Made by a program: the position numbers and the translations under genes | The notes under the pieces: model-generated | The model's database searches: none | Told to the model about the DNA's origin: nothing | What the model saw: only the letters and a program-made list of their open reading frames with translations | Shown: positions 50,349 through 63,973 of the stretch, in pieces | Layout of the letters: each line of letters begins with the position of its first letter | How positions within the stretch are numbered: position 1 is the stretch's first letter | Assembly (NCBI RefSeq): GCF_027587175.1 | Contig: NZ_JAPCID010000007.1 | Coordinates: 62,001 to 126,000, forward strand | Reading direction: 5' to 3' | DNA: 64,000 bases | DNA from: Solirubrobacter deserti | GTDB taxonomy: Bacteria; Actinomycetota; Thermoleophilia; Solirubrobacterales; Solirubrobacteraceae

Positions 50349-52132
<1,784 letters not shown>

Positions 52133-52136
<4 letters not shown>

Positions 52137-52333
52137 GGCCGGTTCTCCTCGATCAGCGCCGCCTCGACCTCGCTCCAGCGAAAGCGGACGGGGCGCCGCG
52201 GACCCTTGCGCAGCCGCCGGCCCGGCAACACGCCCTCGTCGTAGTAGCGGAGCACCGTGGTCGGAGCGATGCGGAGTCGCTCGGCGACCTCGCGGGCGGT
52301 CAGGAACGGCTCGAACTCGGCCGGGTCAGGCAT
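52133..52333 (-). CDS. xis: Excisionase (MerR-like helix-turn-helix)
   Basis: 66 residues, a single winged HTH of the HTH_17 type: LTAREVAERLRIAPTTVLRYYDEG then RRPVRFRWSEVEAAL. Such proteins bend att DNA and direct the integrase towards excision. It overlaps the rep gene end by 34 bp and the integrase start by 3-4 nt, as is usual for repSA-xis-int modules. Confidence 0.9.
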
Positions 52334-53760
52334 GTCGGCTCCCTTCGGGGTGGTGGTTGGTCGCACAGCTCTTCGCGGGCGATCCGGCGCATTTCGCGCT
52401 CTCTGGCGCGGCCTTGCTCGGCAAGAAGGGCCTCGACGTCGGTTCGGTGGCCCTGGCCGACGAACTCGAAGCGCCCACGCCGCTGCTCGGGCGCCGCCGT
52501 GGCGATCGCACGTTGTGATTCGTCGCGCGAGCGCGCAAGGATCTGCTCCAGGACGTGCGCCTCGCGATCGGCGCGGAGCTGCTTGAACGTCGTGGAGTAG
52601 CGGCGCGACTTGGTCAGGCAGTGGCCGCGGTAGCCGAAGGCGTGTGCGTTGCGCGCGAGCTTGCGGTTGTCGAGCTGCGCGTCGAGCGCGAACGCGTGGC
52701 GCAGATAGTGCTTGACGTGCTCGCGCACCGGGAGCTGGTTGACCTCGTGTTCGGTTACGCGGTGGAGCACGCCGCCGGCCTGCTCGGTCGCCTTGGTCGC
52801 GTACTTGGCGAGGTAGCCCGCGCAGTGGCCGGGTTCGAGCGCGCGGCCGGTGCCGATGTGCTGGACATCGAGCTGCGCGCCCCACGTCGCGTAGCCGCCG
52901 CCGATCTCCTGCGGCACAGGGACGGTCACCGTGGCCGCGGCGTTGCGCAGCGCGTCCTCGAGCAGCTCGACGGTGAACCGCAAACCGGGCGGGCGCACGT
53001 CGCCGGCCCGGTACTTGGGCATCGCGCGATCGAGCCGGATCACCAGGTGCAGGTGCACGAGCCCGCGCTGCTGGTACTCGGCGACCTTGACGTAGGCGAC
53101 GCGCACGCGGGCGCGAAGTTGCTTCTGCGTGAGGCCGACGAGCCGCGCCAGGGCGCGCGGCAGGTAGATCGTCGTGCGCCGCCACAGCTCGCCCAGGAGG
53201 TTGTTCCAGACCAGCGCGCTGTCGTAGTCGAAGCACTCGCGGCACAGCGGCTCGCCCAGGCACGGGTCGCCCTCGCGATGGAGGCGCGTGCAGCTGAGCG
53301 AGTTCCCGTGCGGGCAGACCGGCGCGTCACGCCGAGGACGACAGCGGCGCGGCTGCCCGTCAGGACCGGTCGCGCGCGAGTGCACCGCCCCGAACGTCGG
53401 CGCCGTCAGCGTCGCGAAGATCATCGGGTGCTCGGTCACCGTGTCCGGCACGCCTTTGCCGCCCCGCAGCCCTGCCGCGATCAGGTGGTAGGCGTCCTGG
53501 CGGTAGCGCTCCGCGCACGCAGGGCAGATCGCCTCGCGCCGGTTGCCGCAGGCCTTGCGGAGCACGCCGTCCGGCTGCGTGAGCGTCGACCAGGTAGAGC
53601 GCCAGCGCCCGTCCGCGCCGCACGTCTCGACGTGCCCCTTGAGCCGGACCGGCCGAGCGCAGTACCCGGACGAGCGCAGCTGCTTCTGCAGCGTCTCAAA
53701 GTCCGGGCGAGCCGCGCGCTCGGCCAGCTCGACATGCACCGGAGACGGCGCGACGGTCAC
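52300..53760 (-). CDS. Rolling-circle replication initiator (RepSA-like HUH protein)
   Basis: 486 residues. Motif 1 FATLTAPTFG (about 115-124), the HUH metal site in GLVHLHLVIRLD (His236, His238) and a YLAKYATK motif (Tyr316/Tyr320) with the likely DNA-nicking tyrosine. Several Cys pairs in the N-terminal third (CPAC, CTRL, CREC) suggest zinc sites. It would nick the double-strand origin, usually within or near rep, to replicate the excised circle. GTG start, overlapping the sigma-like gene stop. Confidence 0.9.
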   Translation of the reverse strand: MTVAPSPVHVELAERAARPDFETLQKQLRSSGYCARPVRLKGHVETCGADGRWRSTWSTLTQPDGVLRKACGNRREAICPACAERYRQDAYHLIAAGLRGGKGVPDTVTEHPMIFATLTAPTFGAVHSRATGPDGQPRRCRPRRDAPVCPHGNSLSCTRLHREGDPCLGEPLCRECFDYDSALVWNNLLGELWRRTTIYLPRALARLVGLTQKQLRARVRVAYVKVAEYQQRGLVHLHLVIRLDRAMPKYRAGDVRPPGLRFTVELLEDALRNAAATVTVPVPQEIGGGYATWGAQLDVQHIGTGRALEPGHCAGYLAKYATKATEQAGGVLHRVTEHEVNQLPVREHVKHYLRHAFALDAQLDNRKLARNAHAFGYRGHCLTKSRRYSTTFKQLRADREAHVLEQILARSRDESQRAIATAAPEQRRGRFEFVGQGHRTDVEALLAEQGRAREREMRRIAREELCDQPPPRREPTCLTRPSSSRS

Positions 53761-54422
53761 GCGGCCTGCCCGCCCGTCGTGGTCGAGTGCGCCTGATGCC
53801 GGCCCGTGCCGCGACGACGCAGACTTCGCCGAGCCTCACGCGCCGCGGGGAGTCGGTTCACCCAGCCGTAGACCGCGCCCTCGTTTACCCCGACTGCCGC
53901 CGCGGCGGTCGCGACGGTCCCGCCCTTGCGGATCACGCGCAGCGCCCGAGCGATCACGACCGGTGGGTGCACCTGCGAGACGTCCGGTTGGCAGGCCAGC
54001 TCGACGGCCTCGGGCAGCTGGCGCACGAACATGCGCAGCTGCTCGCGCACCAGGACGGCCACCGCGGGGTCTGTTCCCTCGACGGCGGGCATCTCGTCGT
54101 TGCCTCCGTCGAGCCAGACGGCGTCGTTGAGCACACGCGCGCCGGCCTGCCGGGTCCGCTCCCGCGCATTGAGCACGCGCCAGCGGACCGTTCTCGCGGC
54201 GATCGCCGCGAACGAGCACGCCGTCTCCACGCGGCAGGCCTCCAGTAACCCGACAAGCGCTTCCTGACGGAGATCGTCGGCGTCCAGGCCGAGCGGGGGA
54301 GACCAGCACACCGACCGCAGCAACGGCTCGTAGCGAGTCACCAGAACGCGGAACGCCAGCTCGTCGCCGGTCCGCGTCCGCTCCGCGAGCACCTCGTCGG
54401 TCACCTTCCGGCGCGCGCTCAT
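53757..54422 (-). CDS. Sigma-70-like factor in the AICE backbone
   Basis: 221 residues. A region-2-like segment, LDADDLRQEALVGLLEACR and SFAAIAARTVRWRVLNARER (about 55-105), is followed by a C-terminal HTH-like segment GTVATAAAAVGVNEGAVYGWVNR. It could direct RNA polymerase to element promoters, or act as a DNA-binding adaptor without sigma activity. The ATG overlaps the FtsK-like gene stop by 4 nt. Sigma function is inferred. Confidence 0.7.
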   Translation of the reverse strand: MSARRKVTDEVLAERTRTGDELAFRVLVTRYEPLLRSVCWSPPLGLDADDLRQEALVGLLEACRVETACSFAAIAARTVRWRVLNARERTRQAGARVLNDAVWLDGGNDEMPAVEGTDPAVAVLVREQLRMFVRQLPEAVELACQPDVSQVHPPVVIARALRVIRKGGTVATAAAAVGVNEGAVYGWVNRLPAAREARRSLRRRGTGRHQAHSTTTGGQAA

Positions 54423-55771
54423 GACCGCGTCTCCCCGTTCGAGAGCCATACGTCAGCCCGCAGCGCCGCTGCGCGTGCCGCCAGCTCGTCCGCGTCGGCG
54501 TCGTCCAGGTGGAACCCGCGCATCCGGACCGGCAGGCCGTCCTCGGCGAGCAGCAGCCCCACGCCACGCTGAACGGGCGCGATCGTCGCCGCGTCGTGCC
54601 CGAGCGACGCCCAGCCCTGCCCCAGGATCGTGTCCGACGCCTGTGGCGTGTTGCAGCGCAGCGCGAGCCGGAACCCGAAAAGATCGCGGAGCGCGCTCGG
54701 GACTACGTCCGCCGCGGGCTTCTGCGTGGCGGCGCAGACGATCACGCCGGCCGCGCGGCCCCTGGCGACGAGATCGCGCAGCAGCTCCGCGAACTCCTTC
54801 TGCTTCCTGCGGTCCTCGTGCCCGAGGTAGAACGCCAGCTCGTCGCACGCCACCAGGTTCAGCGGCAGCCCGTCCTCCCGCGCGACCTTCCGCTGACCGC
54901 GCAGGAGCAGCTCGCGGTACCGCTGCTCCATCTCGCCACGCAGCTCACGCAACAGCTCGATCGCCTCATCGATGTCCGGGCCCGCGAGCCGCTGCGCACA
55001 CGGAGCCCACACCGACAGCTCCACGAGCTTGCCGTCGAGCAGCCACACGCGCGTGCTCGGATCGAGCGCCGCGGTCGCCACGAGCAGCGAGAGCGCCGCA
55101 CTCTTGCCCGCCCCTGGCTCACCGCCAAGCAGCACGTTGCGCTCGGGCAGCGCCACCGAGACCGTCGCACCCAGCTCGTTGACGCCCATCGGGATCGGCT
55201 CCCACAGCGACAGTTCGGCCGCGTCGCGCTGAGGCCAGCGGACCGACGCCACACCCGCGAGCGGGTCACGCCGAACGAGCGTCACCGTGCCCGTGGCCGC
55301 GTTCTCCCGATCGCGAGTCACGCGGACCTCGCGCACCTGCAGGCACACGGCCAGCTCCTCCGCTCGGTGCTCGACATGCCCCAGCGACGAGCCACGCGAC
55401 GCGCGCACCCGCACCAGCTCTCCGGCCGGGATCGACGTCACTCGCCCCGCGCGTACACGGGGGAGACCGCAGTCCGTCCAGGCCGCCCACCACTTGCGCC
55501 GGACCCGAGCCGCCCGCAGCGCCGTCCGCAGCCAGCCGCGTGCCCTCGGAACTGCGAGCACGACAGCCACCAGGCCGAGAACGAGGCCCCACGCGGCCGC
55601 GGCACCCACGAGCCCGGCAAGCACGCGCTGCACGACGACGATCGCGCCGACGAGCGTCAGTTCCAGCCGTGATCGCCACAGCGCTCCGACCAGACCGCCC
55701 AGTAGCCGCAGCCACACGTCGCCTTCCGTAGCCCGTCGCGGCGTTCGCACACGGGACAGCTCGCCGGTCAT
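54419..55771 (-). CDS. FtsK/SpoIIIE-type DNA translocase (conjugative Tra)
   Basis: 450 residues: two N-terminal membrane helices (about 35-75), then the ATPase with Walker A GEPGAGKS (217-224) and Walker B LNLVACDELAFYL (about 309-321). In pSAM2-type elements a single FtsK-like hexamer moves double-stranded DNA between mycelia or cells. The ATG shares a base with the stop of the upstream gene (TGATG). Confidence 0.92.
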   Translation of the reverse strand: MTGELSRVRTPRRATEGDVWLRLLGGLVGALWRSRLELTLVGAIVVVQRVLAGLVGAAAAWGLVLGLVAVVLAVPRARGWLRTALRAARVRRKWWAAWTDCGLPRVRAGRVTSIPAGELVRVRASRGSSLGHVEHRAEELAVCLQVREVRVTRDRENAATGTVTLVRRDPLAGVASVRWPQRDAAELSLWEPIPMGVNELGATVSVALPERNVLLGGEPGAGKSAALSLLVATAALDPSTRVWLLDGKLVELSVWAPCAQRLAGPDIDEAIELLRELRGEMEQRYRELLLRGQRKVAREDGLPLNLVACDELAFYLGHEDRRKQKEFAELLRDLVARGRAAGVIVCAATQKPAADVVPSALRDLFGFRLALRCNTPQASDTILGQGWASLGHDAATIAPVQRGVGLLLAEDGLPVRMRGFHLDDADADELAARAAALRADVWLSNGETRS

Positions 55772-56118
55772 CACGCCGCCGCCTTCTCCCCGCCGGCCCG
55801 AGCGTTCGTCGAACGGATCGCCGTGGCGCGAAACGCCATGCCCGAGCGCCCGTCCATCTCCCATGCCTGCGCGGTCATGCCCTCGATGCGCACCATCACG
55901 CCCTGACCGACGCCGGGGTCACCGGGGAGGGTCACGCGGATGATCTCCGCCTCGTTGTCGCCGAACGCGACGACCTGGACACGCCAGAGCAACTCCCCGT
56001 TCTCATCGGTGCGAGGCGCCCAGGCCTCACGCGGCTTGCCGTCCTCGAACTTCTTCAGCGGCTCCGCGGCGCTGACCACGAGGAACTGCAGACGGCTCGT
56101 GTCGATCGGCAGACGCAT
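55771..56118 (-). CDS. SCO3933-like AICE regulatory protein
   Basis: 115 residues, mixed beta-strand protein without membrane segments (LRLPIDTSRL-type start, WRVQVVAF, GVMVRIEGMTAQAWEMDGRSGMAFRATAI). It resembles the SCO3933 family found directly before FtsK genes in streptomycete integrative elements, thought to be replication or regulatory. It is the first gene of the backbone operon and has a strong Shine-Dalgarno AAGGAGG. Confidence 0.7.
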   Translation of the reverse strand: MRLPIDTSRLQFLVVSAAEPLKKFEDGKPREAWAPRTDENGELLWRVQVVAFGDNEAEIIRVTLPGDPGVGQGVMVRIEGMTAQAWEMDGRSGMAFRATAIRSTNARAGGEKAAA

Positions 56119-56170
56119 CTGCTCGAACCTCCTTCACGTCGCCCATACGGGACGATCACTCGACTTGAAC

Positions 56171-56199
56171 AACATAGACAGCATGGCTAGCCATGTCAA
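56171..56199 (-). promoter_or_regulatory. Sigma-70-type promoter of the AICE backbone operon
   Basis: On the minus strand: -35 TTGACA, exactly 17 bp spacer, -10 TATGTT, about 50 bp before the first gene. This is near-consensus and stands out in such a GC-rich genome. The spacer holds the palindrome at 56182-56195. Confidence 0.75.
56182..56195. promoter_or_regulatory. Operator palindrome CATGGCTAGCCATG
   Basis: A perfect 14-bp palindrome within the promoter spacer and the last 2 bp of the -35 box, 44 bp before the divergent gntR. It is well placed for repression of integrase and replication genes by the GntR protein, as KorSA does in pSAM2. Binding not tested. Confidence 0.65.
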
Positions 56200-56238
56200 C
56201 CAAGTCAGGTCGCCTAGTCCGCAAGTAGACTTCGCCGT

Positions 56239-57084
56239 GTGAGCGCTCTCGATCCCGACGATCCGCGTCCGCCTTACATCCAAGTGGCCGGCGCCCTTCG
56301 CGCTGCGATCCTCACCAAGACCCTGCAGCCGGGAGACCAGCTGCCGTCCGGCAGTCAGCTCGCGACCCGCTACGGCGTCGCGCGCATGACGGTCCAGCAG
56401 GCGATCCGCATCCTGCGCGACGAGGGCCTCGTCGTCTCACGCCAGGGCAGCGGGGTCTTCGTGCGCGAGCGCACCGCCCGCCCGGTTGGCCTGCGCCCCG
56501 TCGTTGAGCGAGCGTTCCAGCGCCCGAACGTCACGATCGACTTCTTCGGCTTTACCGCCGAGACCCTGCTTGGAGCCGTGCAGGAACCGCTCGACAAGAT
56601 CCGGGCCGGTGCGGCCGCTCCCGAGTCGATCGCAATCCGCATCCTGGTCCCGGACAGCACCAAGCCCGCCGCATTGCCGTGCCGCGCCGACGACCTCGCC
56701 GACGACCCCGCCTTCCGCGAACGCTCGCGCGCAATGACGCAGCGCCACAACGAGGCGATCACCGACGCCGTGCACGAGCTCGACGAACTCGGCCTCGTCG
56801 GCAACGGCACCGTCGAGGTTCGCGTGCACCAGCTCTCGCCCCTCTTCAAGGCCTTCATCCTCAACCGCGAAGAGCTGTTCCTCGGCTTCTATCCCGTCGT
56901 CCGCCGCCAGGTTCAGCTCCACGCCGAGCCTCACGACATCTACGACCTCATGGGCAAGGACGCCACGCTCTTCCACCACGCAGCCAGTGACGACGACACG
57001 TCGACCGGCTCGCAGTACGTCGAGCAGATCCAGGCGTGGTTCGAGACGATCTGGACCACCGTGGCGCAGTCGCTCATCCGATGA
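56239..57084 (+). CDS. GntR-family repressor of the AICE (KorSA-like)
   Basis: 281 residues. GntR wHTH at residues 10-80 (GDQLPSGSQLATRYGVARMTVQQAIRILRDEGLVVSRQGSGVFV), then a C-terminal domain of unknown ligand. Divergent from the backbone operon with an operator palindrome in between, so the probable role is keeping excision and transfer silent. GTG start. Overlaps the HAD gene by 4 nt. Confidence 0.85.
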   Translation: MSALDPDDPRPPYIQVAGALRAAILTKTLQPGDQLPSGSQLATRYGVARMTVQQAIRILRDEGLVVSRQGSGVFVRERTARPVGLRPVVERAFQRPNVTIDFFGFTAETLLGAVQEPLDKIRAGAAAPESIAIRILVPDSTKPAALPCRADDLADDPAFRERSRAMTQRHNEAITDAVHELDELGLVGNGTVEVRVHQLSPLFKAFILNREELFLGFYPVVRRQVQLHAEPHDIYDLMGKDATLFHHAASDDDTSTGSQYVEQIQAWFETIWTTVAQSLIR

Positions 57085-57783: not shown

Positions 57784-58539
57784 TCAGCGCGCCCGCTGCA
57801 CATCCCACAGGAAAAGGTCGAGCTCGGCCGGTGAGGCATCGAGTTGTTCCGCCCACTGGAGGTACGCTCGCTCTATCTCGAGATAGTCGCGCGCGCTTGA
57901 CGGTCGCTTCTCGCTAACACCGGCTTCGGCCAGCGCGCGCAATACGTGCACATCGAGAATCGCGAGTCGCTCGGCCCAGCCGCAATTGCGCAGCAGCCAA
58001 CTTGCGGTTTTTAGACCGACGCCGGGGCAATCGCATAGCCACTGCCGCCGCTCATCTTCGCTCTGCTGCGCAGCGAGACCCGAGCGTAGGCCGCCACGGT
58101 CTCTGACCCACACGACAGCGTCGCTCACCAGCCGCGCCTTGCGAGCCGGGAATCGATACCGGCGCCAGGCACCATCGGCGCACGCCGGCTCGAACTGCGG
58201 CTTCCTCAGTTCGTGCTCGAGTCGCTGGCGGAGCTGATCGTGCGACCACAGGTCGTGAAACGGGTCCAGAGCCATCACCACTCTCGTAGCGGACCGCCCT
58301 AGCTCATACGTGACGCCATGCCCGCCCAGCAGGCAGAAGACCAACTCACGGCGAAGGTCTCTCTCGTCCGCTGGGACAGACGGTGCGGTGACGGCGTACT
58401 TGACCTTGTGACGCTCCCACACCGGGGACCACCACGGTTCGGAGAGTTCTGCCACACGGGCGGGGTCTACGTGCATCGTTCTTGGTTTCTCGAACCGCGC
58501 CCGGATCTCCTCCGTACACCGAGGCGGATGACGCGTCAA
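57784..58539 (-). CDS. OGG-like HhH-GPD DNA glycosylase/lyase (type IV CBASS Cap11-like)
   Basis: 251 residues from a TTG start that overlaps the queD stop (TTGA); an internal ATG at 58476 (MHVDP) is the alternative. The helix-hairpin-helix and active site are intact: CPGVGLKTASWLL with catalytic Lys177, and LAILDVHVLRAL with Asp196, as in 8-oxoguanine glycosylases of the OGG type. In type IV CBASS this gene is a hallmark accessory of unknown precise role. It may act on a deazaguanine-bearing substrate rather than 8-oxoG, which is inference. Confidence 0.85.
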   Translation of the reverse strand: MTRHPPRCTEEIRARFEKPRTMHVDPARVAELSEPWWSPVWERHKVKYAVTAPSVPADERDLRRELVFCLLGGHGVTYELGRSATRVVMALDPFHDLWSHDQLRQRLEHELRKPQFEPACADGAWRRYRFPARKARLVSDAVVWVRDRGGLRSGLAAQQSEDERRQWLCDCPGVGLKTASWLLRNCGWAERLAILDVHVLRALAEAGVSEKRPSSARDYLEIERAYLQWAEQLDASPAELDLFLWDVQRAR

Positions 58540-58919
58540 CTCGACCCGCCACCAGGATCGCGTGGGCCGCGATAGATGCACGATGCAGTGCACGTTTCCG
58601 CGACTCGTACGGCAACCAAACCCGGCAAAGTGCTCTCGATCTGGGTCCAGATCCATGCGGCGAGAAGCTCGGACGTGGGATTCTCGAGGCCCGCCACCTC
58701 GTTGAGGTAGTGGTGATCGAGTTGATCGTGCAGCGGGGCCCATGCGCTGGCGAGATCTGCGAAGTCGCAAACCCATCCCTCAGACGACAGGTCGCCGGCC
58801 ACGGTGAGTTCTACGACGAAAGAATGACCGTGCAGTCGCCGGCATTTATGGCCATGTGGGGCCTTGGGAAGCAAATGCGCCGCCTCGAACCGAAATGCGC
58901 GCGTAATCTCGAAGCTCAC
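58536..58919 (-). CDS. queD: QueD-like 6-carboxytetrahydropterin synthase
   Basis: 127 residues; converts dihydroneopterin triphosphate to 6-carboxy-tetrahydropterin. Zinc ligands His15 (FEAAHLL), His30 and His32, and catalytic Cys26 in the C-x3-HGH motif (KCRRLHGH), plus LDHHYLNE and AETCTASCIY, match the QueD/PTPS family. The GTG start overlaps the queE stop (GTGA). No folE is in the cluster, so the substrate would come from host GTP cyclohydrolase I. Confidence 0.92.
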   Translation of the reverse strand: MSFEITRAFRFEAAHLLPKAPHGHKCRRLHGHSFVVELTVAGDLSSEGWVCDFADLASAWAPLHDQLDHHYLNEVAGLENPTSELLAAWIWTQIESTLPGLVAVRVAETCTASCIYRGPRDPGGGSS

Positions 58920-59554
58920 GGGATACCAAGCACCTTGTGCCACTGGCGGCTTAGCTGCCAGGCCGGTCGGTCGCGGCACGTGGCGATCGTCACGGCGGTG
59001 TTGTGGTCCACGTCAGGGCCATCAATCGGCTGCAAGAACCGGTGTGAGAACTCCAAACGCTCGAGTTCCGCGAGGTCCAGGCCCGACTGCGGCCAGGCGA
59101 TCTTGATCTCGTCACCGCTACGTTGACGCAACGGAGCTCCGGATTTGGGACTCACGCAAATCCAGTCGACGCCCTCTGGGACAGGATTGGTTCCATTAGT
59201 CTCGATCGCCAATACTGCACCGTTCTCGCGTACTGCTCCGATTAGTGCCGCGTCCAACTGCAGTGTCGGCTCTCCGCCGGTGAAGACGACAAACGCGGGG
59301 CTGCTAAACGACCAGCACGCATGAATCGCCGCCGCCAGCGTCGCCGGAGATTCGAATCGGCCGCCTCCCTCGCCGTCTGTCCCAACGAAGTCGGTGTCGC
59401 AGAAGCCACAGATCGCGTTCGACCGGCCGCTCTCACGCCCATTCCACAGGTTGCAGCCGGAGAAGCGGCAGAAGACCGCCGGACGCCCGGTGTTGTAACC
59501 CTCGCCTTGAAGAGTCGGGAAGATCGACTTGACCATGTAGCGGCGCCGCCTCAC
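58916..59554 (-). CDS. queE: QueE radical SAM 7-carboxy-7-deazaguanine synthase
   Basis: 212 residues; rearranges carboxytetrahydropterin to 7-carboxy-7-deazaguanine (CDG). Family start FPTLQGEGYNTGRPAVF, then Cys34, Cys49 and Cys52 as C-x14-C-x2-C, the expanded cluster motif known in some QueE proteins instead of C-x3-C-x2-C, and FTGGEPTLQ for SAM. The GTG start overlaps the SLATT gene stop (GTGA); an ATG at 59536 is an alternative. Confidence 0.93.
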   Translation of the reverse strand: MRRRRYMVKSIFPTLQGEGYNTGRPAVFCRFSGCNLWNGRESGRSNAICGFCDTDFVGTDGEGGGRFESPATLAAAIHACWSFSSPAFVVFTGGEPTLQLDAALIGAVRENGAVLAIETNGTNPVPEGVDWICVSPKSGAPLRQRSGDEIKIAWPQSGLDLAELERLEFSHRFLQPIDGPDVDHNTAVTIATCRDRPAWQLSRQWHKVLGIP

Positions 59555-60219
59555 GATCTCGGACGATCCGTGTCGGCGAGCCCCTGTTCTCTGGGGAGAT
59601 CCGGAGTCACGGGGTCCGCTTCCGGCGGAGCCGTGATCTTGGCCGCCTTTCTGCTCTTCTGTGATCCGAACATGCTTCGCCAGAGCACGGTGCATCGAAG
59701 CCACCAGGTCGGTGACCCGGGGCGTTGGTCCGCGAGGGTGAAAACCTCGCGCTTCCGGTTGTGACGGGCCTTCAGCGATGCGGCCTTCATGTCCGGGATC
59801 GGCGCGATCGCCCCCATGACCCGCGCGTATTCGACAGCAAGATCTTTGTCCGGAACTGACCATCGTTCATTCTCGACCTCGGCGCGCGCGAAAACCAAGT
59901 TGAGTTCTCCAAGCTGCTTCGCGGCTTCGGCATGCGCCGCTGCTTGTGTCGGCCAGCCGACAACGAGATCAACAACGGAGACGAAGAAGGTCACGCCCGC
60001 AAGCGCCGCAAGGAAACTCTGCAGTCGTCCCTCGAGTCCGAGGATCGAGATCTGCTGGTCGTCGTTGGCCAACGCGAGCACGAGGCTCGTGATCGAGAAC
60101 GCCATCACGCCCAGCACGAGAAGACGCGCTCGCCGCAAGTATCGATCGCGCAGCGTCGCATGCGCCGTGAGCATCCAGCCGATTACTCGACGGCAGCGGT
60201 TGTACTCCTTCTGAGTCAT
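59551..60219 (-). CDS. SLATT-type two-helix membrane effector
   Basis: 222 residues. An N-terminal amphipathic region (EYNRCRRVIGWMLTAHATLRDRYL) precedes two membrane helices (about 32-51 and 68-89) and a soluble C-terminal half with AAAHAEAAKQLGELNLVFARAE. This layout is that of SLATT proteins, named for association with SMODS nucleotidyltransferases and SLOG sensors and predicted to form pores when triggered. It starts 1 nt after the CD-NTase stop, so it is the probable killing effector of this CBASS. Confidence 0.82.
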   Translation of the reverse strand: MTQKEYNRCRRVIGWMLTAHATLRDRYLRRARLLVLGVMAFSITSLVLALANDDQQISILGLEGRLQSFLAALAGVTFFVSVVDLVVGWPTQAAAHAEAAKQLGELNLVFARAEVENERWSVPDKDLAVEYARVMGAIAPIPDMKAASLKARHNRKREVFTLADQRPGSPTWWLRCTVLWRSMFGSQKSRKAAKITAPPEADPVTPDLPREQGLADTDRPRS

Positions 60220-60220
60220 C

Positions 60221-61138
60221 TTATTCGAGCAACCGCCGCCACTCCTCGGCGCTCCTCGCATTCTGCATTCGCGAAGCGATCCGACGGAGCGCGGTGGCGA
60301 CCCGCTGTCGATGTGGCGAGTTCTCAGCCCCGAAGGTCTCATCGATACGCGTCGATTGACCCGTCACGTCGGCGATCGGCCGTTTGATCCTCTCGGCGGC
60401 GTGACTAAAGAAGTGCCCGAGCATCGCTTTGGCGTTGCGGGGACCCTGGTAGCCACGAAAGGCATCGACCGCGAGCGCTTCCATGTGGTAGCCACCAGGA
60501 CGGTCGCGTTCTCCGAGCGACGCGTCCACGACCGCCTTAGCAAGCTTGATCGTCGGTACAACGCGTCCCCCTTGTTCACGGTTGGTGTGCGTCAAGCGCT
60601 CCTCGAATGCGCGTGGCCGGATGAACGACCACCCCGTGCCCGCCTTGTCGGAAATTGCAATGTTGCCGCCTCGCTCAACCGCCGGGAGCAGCTGAATCTG
60701 GTTGCCGTCCTTATACGTGACCGTGACTGCAAAACCCGCATCGATCGAAGCGACCCGGCCCATGTCAAGGCCCTGACGAAGGGCGCGCTCCATCGCGGAA
60801 CGAAGCGCGCTCGGCGTATCCCCGTCAAGCGCCTCATGCTTCAAGACGACGAGGGAATCGACATCGGAGAGACCGTCGACGTAGGTGTGCTTGGCGACCG
60901 AGCCGCCATAGAGCAAGCGATCAATTCCAGCTATGCGGTCTCCGAGAGCGTTCGTGATCTCGTCGAGCCGCTCGTTGACGAGTTCCGTGTCGCGGTTGTT
61001 GATGAGCGCAAGCTGCTCGTTGAGCAGGGCGTTGACATCGCTCTCGAGGCGAGCCTGTTCTAGTTCCTTCTGAACCTCGGCTCGGAGCTCATCGGCACTT
61101 CGACTGCTATGGAGCCCCCCGCCACCGCTCCCGCCCAT
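60221..61138 (-). CDS. CD-NTase, cyclic-oligonucleotide synthase of type IV CBASS
   Basis: 305 residues of the SMODS/CD-NTase family. The G-S motif is GGS80VAKHTYVDGLSD92VD94, with Asp92 and Asp94 as metal ligands; the third acidic position appears to be Gln149 in QIQLLPA. It would make a cyclic or linear nucleotide signal on phage infection. The protein opens with MGGSGGGG, a flexible Gly-rich tail before the first helix. It follows the TGT-like stop directly and has Shine-Dalgarno AAGGAG 7 nt upstream. Confidence 0.9.
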   Translation of the reverse strand: MGGSGGGGLHSSRSADELRAEVQKELEQARLESDVNALLNEQLALINNRDTELVNERLDEITNALGDRIAGIDRLLYGGSVAKHTYVDGLSDVDSLVVLKHEALDGDTPSALRSAMERALRQGLDMGRVASIDAGFAVTVTYKDGNQIQLLPAVERGGNIAISDKAGTGWSFIRPRAFEERLTHTNREQGGRVVPTIKLAKAVVDASLGERDRPGGYHMEALAVDAFRGYQGPRNAKAMLGHFFSHAAERIKRPIADVTGQSTRIDETFGAENSPHRQRVATALRRIASRMQNARSAEEWRRLLE

Positions 61139-62197
61139 TCAGGTTCTCCTTGCCATCGCAGAAAGGTACGCGCTCTGTAGGACGTCACCGAGGTGCTCGC
61201 CGGGCCGGCCCACCATGGGATCGTTGAAGATCGTCCAGTCGTACGACTCGGCTACGAATCGGCGCAGCCGCGACTGCAGCTGACCGAGAAATGTCAAGTT
61301 CGATGCCAGCGCGGCGAACCGGCGAACGTCGTCTCGCTGTTCGATCAAGCTCTGCAACAAGGGCGCTTGCTCGCGATGCACTGCGAGTCCGTGCCAGTAC
61401 GCGTACCGCAACCACGTCAATCCGTCGAAGATGTCCGCGCCGGCAGCGAAGTAGAGCGGCACGAACAGGGGATCGAGTGCCCCGAAAATATGGATCGGCG
61501 TGCTCAGTCTCGCCCGATCCAGTATCGAGCGCAGGCGCATGACACCGACTATGCGGTCGAGTAATGTCGCGCCGAGCTCGTGCTCTGTGATGCCTATGAC
61601 TCCGAAGAACGCGAGCTTCGACGCGCACGCTTCGAGCTCTTCCAGGTCGTGGATCGAGCCACGGCACGGTTTGAGGAGCACGATTGGAGTTAGAGCGCGA
61701 CGACCAGCAAGAAACTCCTGCGCGGACCGCAGCTGCGCCGCGTAGCTCTCGCCGGGACGATCCCAAGCGACTGCAGCACAGTTGACCGCAGCGGCGGGCA
61801 GGCGATCTAGCAGGACCCCGTAATCCGCTTCGGTCCACGGCAACGGCTCACGTAGATCTTGAAGCAGCTCGCCGCTGTCGACCTTTGGACGCACCTCATA
61901 GCCGCCACTGTCGATGATCAGAACTTCGGGACGCGATAGGAGACTTGCGCTCCAGTCTTCGTCTTCCAGGCTGTCGGCGGCGGCGAGCAAGCCGTGGTGC
62001 AGATCGTACGCCGACACCAGGAAGCTCTCGGTCAGGCGATCTGCGAAGAACTCGAGTGCGCTGGAAACCTCCGACCGTTCCGGCTCGCCCGGTTCACGGA
62101 TCGCTCCGAATCCACGCGATGAGAACGACGGAACGAGAAGCGGGGTCGCGATCTGGTCCCCCGACACCAACCGCAATGACCTGATCTCAGCCGACAC
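61139..62197 (-). CDS. TGT-like deazaguanine transglycosylase homologue (Cap10-like)
   Basis: 352 residues with a TIM-barrel TGT pattern: IIDSGGYE with Asp96 (substrate-contact Asp) and ADIFDGLTWLRYA with Asp258 at the nucleophile position of tRNA-guanine transglycosylases. The CxCxxC-His zinc site of canonical TGT is absent, so it may not bind tRNA in the usual way. I chose the GTG at 62197 with Shine-Dalgarno GGGAGG 6 nt before it; this overlaps queC by 11 nt. Upstream alternatives exist at 62218 and 62257. Confidence 0.82.
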   Translation of the reverse strand: MSAEIRSLRLVSGDQIATPLLVPSFSSRGFGAIREPGEPERSEVSSALEFFADRLTESFLVSAYDLHHGLLAAADSLEDEDWSASLLSRPEVLIIDSGGYEVRPKVDSGELLQDLREPLPWTEADYGVLLDRLPAAAVNCAAVAWDRPGESYAAQLRSAQEFLAGRRALTPIVLLKPCRGSIHDLEELEACASKLAFFGVIGITEHELGATLLDRIVGVMRLRSILDRARLSTPIHIFGALDPLFVPLYFAAGADIFDGLTWLRYAYWHGLAVHREQAPLLQSLIEQRDDVRRFAALASNLTFLGQLQSRLRRFVAESYDWTIFNDPMVGRPGEHLGDVLQSAYLSAMARRT

Positions 62198-62726
62198 CCA
62201 GGGCCTCCCGATCTGCACAAGACGAGCAGGCGCCGCACGCATCGTCCGACGCTTCACAGCTATGCGTCACCGAAAGCGGAACATCGAGGCGTAACGCGAG
62301 CGCGTGGATATCGCCTTTGCTCCAGTTCAGGAAAGGCGTCACGAGCTGCATCGCACCGTCACGGTGAAAATCGAGTGTGCGCTGCAGCAGATCGACGAAA
62401 TCCGGCGAGCAATCGCGATAGCCGGTCCCGGCATGGATCCCCAGACCGACTAGTGCCGCATCCGGTCGTAGGGCCGCGGCGCAGGTCACGAGCAGCGCGT
62501 TCCGCATCGGGATCTCTCCCGCGCTGATCACGAGACCTTGCACCTGAAGTTCTTGGACGGGAGCGGCGAAGTGGTGGCCAAGTGATCGCACTGCTTCGCG
62601 CTCCGCCTCACGCGCTGGCTGGCCATAGTCCACGAAGCAGAGCTCAACCTCTTGGTCCTCCGTAACCGCGAGCGCCGTGAGCGTCGCCGAATCAATACCG
62701 CCACTGCATAAGACGACGTAACCCAT
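62187..62726 (-). CDS. QueC-like PP-loop enzyme (type IV CBASS Cap9-like)
   Basis: 179 residues, shorter than housekeeping QueC (about 220). PP-loop ATP site SGGIDS (8-13), the substrate segment GIHAGTGYRDCSPDFVDLLQ, and zinc cysteines 157, 164, 167 and 170 (SCEASDDACGACSSC). QueC adenylates CDG and amidates it towards preQ0. In this context it is probably the CBASS Cap9 version that uses CDG on a protein or nucleic acid partner. First gene of the operon; a GTG 6 bp upstream is the alternative start. Confidence 0.88.
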   Translation of the reverse strand: MGYVVLCSGGIDSATLTALAVTEDQEVELCFVDYGQPAREAEREAVRSLGHHFAAPVQELQVQGLVISAGEIPMRNALLVTCAAALRPDAALVGLGIHAGTGYRDCSPDFVDLLQRTLDFHRDGAMQLVTPFLNWSKGDIHALALRLDVPLSVTHSCEASDDACGACSSCADREALGVG

Positions 62727-62868
62727 GATCACCTGGGAGAGCCTCGACCAATAGATTCTGTGACACCGTACGCAACGAGTCGGACGCGATCAACTGAGGC
62801 CTACCGGTCGCGAGATATGTCCCCTTGTCGCCCGTGATGACCTCCTCCACGACGTCAAGGGCGGCCTT
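62692..62868 (-). pseudogene. Possible gene remnant upstream of queC
   Basis: A frame ending at 62692 reads ALDVVEEVITGDKGTYLATG and continues to LMQWRY, overlapping the queC start. It looks more like coding sequence than the repetitive GC-rich DNA before it, but there is no obvious start with a ribosome site and I do not recognise the sequence. It may be the cut-off 3' end of a gene at the cargo-backbone junction. Confidence 0.2.
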
Positions 62869-63131: not shown

Positions 63132-63577
63132 ATCGCGATGCTATCCGCGAACGTAAACCCGGGTCGACTCGTTTACGGCTAGCTCCGCCGTCCGGCGGCG
63201 TCAAGTGGACTGCTGCGCAGCTCGCTGCGCTCGGCCCTGTCGGGCTCCGCTTGACCCCACCGGCCGACTCCGCTGATGCGCGGGTCAAGGAGGCTCCGCC
63301 AGGACTGCCGCACCAAGGGCGGCGCTGAGCTGAGCTGAGCTGGCGGGCAGACCGGGTCTACTTCCTCGCCTTCTCCCCTCACGGGGACCGGTTTCCACCC
63401 CTTACCGCGAGATCGGCTAGGCCGTCAGGGTAGGCCGCGAACGGCGGTCGTCACCGGCCGCGCGTCGTGCCCACAACGTGCCCACTTCCACGAGAGGCCC
63501 CATTTCGGGCACCCATCCGACCCACGCTTACCGCGGCGTAGAGCCAAATGAGCGCCCTCAATGAACCGGTTTTCAGC
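63132..63577. other. Gene-free right end of the element with repeats
   Basis: About 440 bp without a convincing gene. It contains CCGCCG/CGGCGG (near 63187-63200), a GTCAAG...CTTGAC inverted pair (63209-63256) and a short tandem CTGAG run at 63326-63342. Such sequence could be a transfer or replication site, but I cannot assign one. Confidence 0.5.

Positions 63578-63973
<396 letters not shown>

Follow-up and report, generated by a model that had tools for sequence, protein, structure and literature searches.

Layout of the divergent promoter region

The window analysed here comprises 64,000 nt of Solirubrobacter deserti (NZ_JAPCID010000007.1, assembly GCF_027587175.1, positions 62,001-126,000 of the forward strand). 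Within it, positions 56119-56238 are exactly the 120-bp gap between two divergent genes, a pra-like gene that starts at 56118 on the minus strand and a gntR regulator gene that starts with GTG at 56239 on the plus strand. A previous sequence-only reading had placed in this gap a minus-strand promoter, TTGACA-N17-TATGTT, with an operator palindrome for the divergent GntR in its spacer, and had supposed that it drives an integration/replication operon. On the evidence below, we consider it very likely that a small AICE (actinomycete integrative and conjugative element) has its master switch in this region, where GntR bound to the palindrome CATGGCTAGCCATG represses the pra operon.

Both promoter elements can be read directly on the minus strand, the -35 hexamer TTGACA at 56194-56199 and the -10 hexamer TATGTT at 56171-56176, separated by a 17-nt spacer, and the previously given distance of 44 bp from the palindrome to the gntR start is also correct. 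The palindrome (56182-56195; 56180-56197 when scored as a weight-matrix site) is perfect and lies mostly in the spacer, but since it shares the last two bases of the -35 hexamer, it is not wholly inside the spacer as had been proposed. A Shine-Dalgarno sequence, AAGGAGG, precedes the pra-like gene (56128-56134, minus strand). On the plus strand, TAGACT at 56226-56231 is a candidate -10 element of gntR only 7 nt ahead of the GTG, given which the gntR transcript is probably leaderless; TAGACT, TAGGCT, TACGCT or TACTCT is found ∼7-9 nt ahead of the ATG of gntR in many related loci. A possible second operator, AGGTCGCCTAGTCCGCAA at 56207-56224, is weak and apparently decayed (matrix score -0.2 bits).

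Conservation of the probable operator with gntR

With the GntR protein as query, a search of archaeal and bacterial genomes gave 29 loci, of which 26 (L015-L040) were used as the comparison set; their GntR proteins share 59-65% identity with the query over nearly the full length and come from Pseudonocardiales, Streptosporangiales, Nocardia and others. In all 26 relatives the palindrome CTTGnCTAGnCAAG (at most 3 mismatches) occurs in 2-4 copies within 200 bp upstream of gntR, against a background of 0.04 per 200 bp elsewhere in the same loci, where some of the upstream matches are overlapping registers and the number of true operators is nearer 2-3 per locus. Moreover, the palindrome begins exactly 2 nt inside the -35 hexamer in at least 17 of the 26, just as in the window, and the relatives' -10 elements have the form NAnnnT at 16-18 nt from the -35. 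The identical 14-mer CATGGCTAGCCATG is present in five of them (L016, L017, L029, L035 and L037). At a threshold of 80% protein identity the 26 relatives separate into 14 clusters, and therefore they do not represent one recent copy counted repeatedly.

Of the one or two additional operators of the relatives, one is close to the start site, at 27-38 nt downstream, and one close to the gntR promoter; a well-formed second or third operator stands in the interval that matches 56207-56224; in the window these extra sites are absent or decayed and the single central site is left. Outside the comparison set, the layout is repeated with a Pra-like partner in a locus at 51% identity (L064), and a GntR of a Nocardia plasmid (56%) has the variant CCTGCATAGGCAGG beside TTGACC, ahead of an excisionase gene. 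The motif is absent from more distant GntR relatives with a PLD-like (phospholipase D-like) domain (29-37% identity, C-terminal identity at most 37%), which are thus unhelpful for operator definition.

The divergent partner of gntR varies among the 26 relatives: it is SCO3933/Pra-like in ∼10, an excisionase in L027 and L032, a WhiB protein in L024, L026 and L030, and a sigma factor in L034. Because gntR keeps the motif whatever gene faces it, GntR is the likely binder, and CATGGCTAGCCATG is very probably, as far as sequence comparison can tell, the docking site of the divergent GntR. In this respect the comparison supports what had been proposed for the single genome.

Rarity of the palindrome and promoter score were each rejected as evidence by themselves, due to the fact that the window contains 19 perfect 14-nt palindromes, and that a promoter scan over 14 kb found one site where shuffled sequence gives 1.0. 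Taken alone, the palindrome and the promoter are therefore weak signals, and what goes beyond chance at the level of sequence is conservation at the matching position in 26 relatives. A weight matrix trained on the relatives only, with the window left out, ranked 56180-56197 first among 64,000 positions with 24.8 bits, the next independent site scoring 5.1. Across the 7.55-Mb genome, moreover, only the CATGGCTAGCCATG site fits the family motif CnTGSCTAGSCAnG exactly. As no second exact site in that genome points to a wider host regulon, the regulator seems to serve this element exclusively.

Phages yielded no such GntR, and of 398 genomes of the host class only this one had it, with none of the other 397 giving a match, which suggests that it was acquired recently from outside the class.

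The regulator and its coupled HAD gene

The gntR gene (56239-57084, plus strand) encodes a winged helix (residues 13-75) that matches PF00392 with 73.5 bits against a cut-off of 27, which places it in the GntR family, followed by a C-terminal domain (residues 84-281). No Pfam match to the UTRA domain, the chorismate-lyase fold that is the hallmark of HutC/KorSA proteins, was found in it, thus the regulator is not a KorSA/HutC protein. Instead, an AlphaFold2 model of the C-terminal 198 residues alone (pLDDT 92.8) has the phospholipase D (PLD) fold, resembling Zucchini (Z 11.3, rmsd (root-mean-square deviation) 2.7 over 121 residues), Nuc (Z 10.5, rmsd 3.1 over 125 residues) and the sugar-binding domain of TrmB (Z 10.1, rmsd 2.8 over 117 residues). 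The catalytic HxKxxxxD signature of the phospholipase D superfamily is not present in this domain: only xFKxxxxN remains of it, in which K204 and N209 do not vary whereas the His position does. Catalysis is unlikely with such a degraded signature, and we infer that the domain serves as a phosphate-binding sensor. A literature search found no paper on a GntR type with a PLD-fold sensor.

The gene of a HAD hydrolase, a putative phosphatase (PF00702; 57081-57764, plus strand), overlaps the end of gntR at ATGA, and a HAD gene adjoins or follows gntR in 25 of the 26 relatives. This coupling and pairing make it plausible that the HAD product acts on the GntR ligand. In a Streptomyces plasmid (L045, 5956-8984), a distant GntR of this type is followed by HAD and phosphotransferase genes, a gene order hinting at a phosphorylated ligand.

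The probable controlled operon and its element

The first gene under the TTGACA/TATGTT promoter is the pra-like gene of the SCO3933 family (55771-56118), which matches NF051478 with 71.8 bits (E 4e-20), slightly under the curated cut-off of 80. It is followed on the minus strand by genes for an FtsK/TraB-type transfer ATPase (54419-55771; PF01580, NF041214; ATGA overlap with pra), a sigma-70-region-2-like protein that overlaps both neighbours (53757-54422), a RepSA-type replication initiator (52300-53760; PF20199, E 4e-133), an excisionase-like HTH_17 protein (PF12728; reading frame 52133-52336, with the start inside this range) and a tyrosine integrase (50967-52136; PF00589), whose end reads into an attachment (att) site. 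Since these six genes overlap end to start, and no terminator-like site was found between any of them, a single transcript is likely, i.e. one operon pra-tra-sigma-like-repSA-xis-int read from this promoter. This gene order is consistent with the supposed control of integration and replication, with the difference that pra and tra come first.

A 46-nt attL core at 50952-50997, in the 3′ part of a tRNA-Arg gene (50920-50994), is repeated identically as attR at 63578-63623, so that the element spans 12.6 kb at the tRNA-Arg; the same tRNA-Arg is present in congeneric genomes. Between the att repeats lie an integrase, an excisionase, a RepSA-type initiator and an FtsK-type transfer protein, the gene set of an AICE.

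The cargo of the element (57784-62732, minus strand) is a set like that of a type IV cyclic oligonucleotide-based antiphage signalling system (CBASS), as matched by Pfam, NCBIfam and PADLOC, with an OGG-type glycosylase, QueD, QueE, a 2TM effector, an oligonucleotide cyclase, a TGT protein (Cap10-like) and QueC (Cap9-like), where QueD and QueE may supply a deazaguanine precursor. The CBASS genes are convergent to gntR-HAD and form their own unit.

Comparison with known regulatory systems

The switch is a variant of the known KorSA/Pra scheme of AICEs. As in that scheme, the predicted regulator site overlaps the pra promoter; sites near the regulator's own promoter are well-formed in the relatives, and only a decayed one is seen in the window. 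The closest layout is that of an AICE remnant in Streptomyces coelicolor (PMC8584621), where the GntR gene SCO3932 is likewise divergent from a pra gene (SCO3933) heading tra-rep-int, and where SCO3932 has been shown, in vitro as well as in vivo, to bind the promoter region common to both genes at a place that covers the SCO3933 start site; in the window, the matching operator position is predicted from sequence. Several components differ. SCO3932 is of the HutC type with UTRA, whereas the window GntR carries the PLD-fold domain; SCO3937 is a serine integrase, whereas the window element has a tyrosine integrase; and the coupled HAD gene distinguishes the present system. The binding sites also differ, those of SCO3932 being AC[TC]T[AG]TT[GC][TG][GT]ACG-like (PMC8584621) and the window operator of the CTTGnCTAGnCAAG type, with no match between the window operator and the published motif in this comparison, which covers SCO3932 only.

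As described in PMC8584621 and PMC3218068, the AICE pSAM2 carries repSA, xis, int and a tra gene, and its GntR protein KorSA represses pra; there, korSA precedes pra, and the Pra protein activates repSA-xis-int as a separate operon. By contrast, pra in the window is divergent and apparently belongs to the same operon as the genes that its product would activate. Conjugal immunity of pSAM2 involves the Nudix protein Pif, while in the window it is a HAD protein that is tied to the regulator. The domain architecture resembles that of archaeal TrmB-type regulators (PDB 2f5t, 3qph; Z ∼10, rmsd 2.8-3.9 over 117-118 residues), which also join a DNA-binding head to a PLD-fold ligand domain; the DNA-binding head of the present regulator, however, is of the GntR winged-helix type, and its PLD part has <10% sequence identity to theirs.

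Model and alternative explanations

From the site, promoter, operon layout, att sites and the conservation with gntR ahead of differing partners, which are read from the sequence, we infer binding, repression, transcription of the operon and a ligand step as follows. A GntR dimer would occupy CATGGCTAGCCATG, covering the end of the -35 hexamer and most of the spacer, and would exclude RNA polymerase from the pra-tra-sigma-like-repSA-xis-int promoter, leaving the element integrated and silent. Because it lies in the middle of the region, with the probable leaderless start of gntR ∼50 bp downstream, the same site probably also tunes expression of gntR-HAD; in other GntR divergons a single central site usually controls both sides (PMC4494728). 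Release would probably occur via a small molecule on the C-terminal PLD-fold domain, and the translationally coupled HAD phosphatase would produce or destroy that ligand.

Several points weigh against this model. GntR proteins are capable of activation as well as repression, and TATGTT is only a moderate match to a -10 element. Moreover, the window has one good operator where the relatives have 2-4, thus control may be weaker in the window, or the element may be decaying. Finally, the core of CATGGCTAGCCATG lacks the GT-N4-AC of the HutC subfamily (PMC4494728); the two agree only in G at -4, in C at +4 and in the TA at the centre.

An unlikely alternative is that GntR does bind the palindrome but activates the pra operon, or acts chiefly on its own promoter, given that the operator is also ∼50 bp upstream of the gntR start. 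Activation fits poorly with a site that overlaps the pra -35 and spacer, a position that normally blocks polymerase and that recurs at equal offset in the relatives as described above, and KorSA, the best-studied counterpart, is reported to be a repressor (PMC8584621). Somewhat less probable still, a different protein could occupy the palindrome, be it the product of the xis, sigma-like or pra-like gene or a host regulator; these element genes adjoin the region, and pSAM2 Pra is itself a regulator (PMC3218068, PMC8584621). Against this, the motif accompanies gntR with each type of partner, namely genes for an excisionase, WhiB, a sigma factor or a Pra-like protein, is missing beside the GntR relatives of at most 37% C-terminal identity, and has no second exact copy in the host genome.

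We give similarly little credence to a switch opened by phage infection or a CBASS signal, which was part of the sequence-only reading and would join defence and mobility. The element does carry the CBASS-like set, and nucleotide binding by a PLD-fold sensor is conceivable in principle, but a matrix search found no operator upstream of the CBASS operon (best score -2.7 bits), there is no LexA-like box in 56119-56238, and CBASS is absent within 4 kb of the GntR/operator loci in all 26 switch-bearing relatives, so this link finds no support. That the palindrome is a chance feature of an intergenic region is hardly credible at all: the number of such palindromes in the window and the chance-level promoter match would allow it, but it is contradicted by the position-specific conservation in the 26 relatives and sits badly with the 20-bit gap to the next independent site.

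A broader and decidedly tentative idea is that the GntR(PLD-fold)-HAD pair with CTTGnCTAGnCAAG operators forms a transferable signalling module of actinobacterial mobile elements. In this view, a phosphorylated small molecule under control of the HAD enzyme would be sensed by a PLD domain that has lost catalysis, and would determine when an element excises and transfers. The pair could stand ahead of genes for Pra, an excisionase, WhiB or a sigma factor, and its HAD protein would degrade the signal and act in conjugal immunity, as has been proposed for the Nudix protein Pif of pSAM2. The signal for exit of AICEs from the chromosome is poorly known. In the present system the sequence defines a repressor, its operator, the operon and a coupled enzyme, all of them conserved across Pseudonocardiales, Streptosporangiales and Nocardia; which ligand induces the switch can therefore be tested directly with a single protein and a DNA fragment of 120 bp. 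The system also adds to the family a GntR type with a modelled PLD-fold sensor.

Further features of the element and its flanks

One-mismatch LexA-like matches number 29 in the window, against 18.7 expected. Identical 21-nt direct repeats, TCGTGCCCACAACGTGCCCAC, are situated just inside both ends of the element (51068-51088 and 63465-63485) and are possible arm-type sites of the integrase. The next 12 kb on the right contain no element genes that would indicate a tandem second element, save for the overlap of an integrase end with an att site. About 3.9 kb to the right of attR and outside the window (L078, 4069-4114), a degenerate att core retains 34 of the 46 bases and may be what is left of an integration that took place earlier at this same tRNA.
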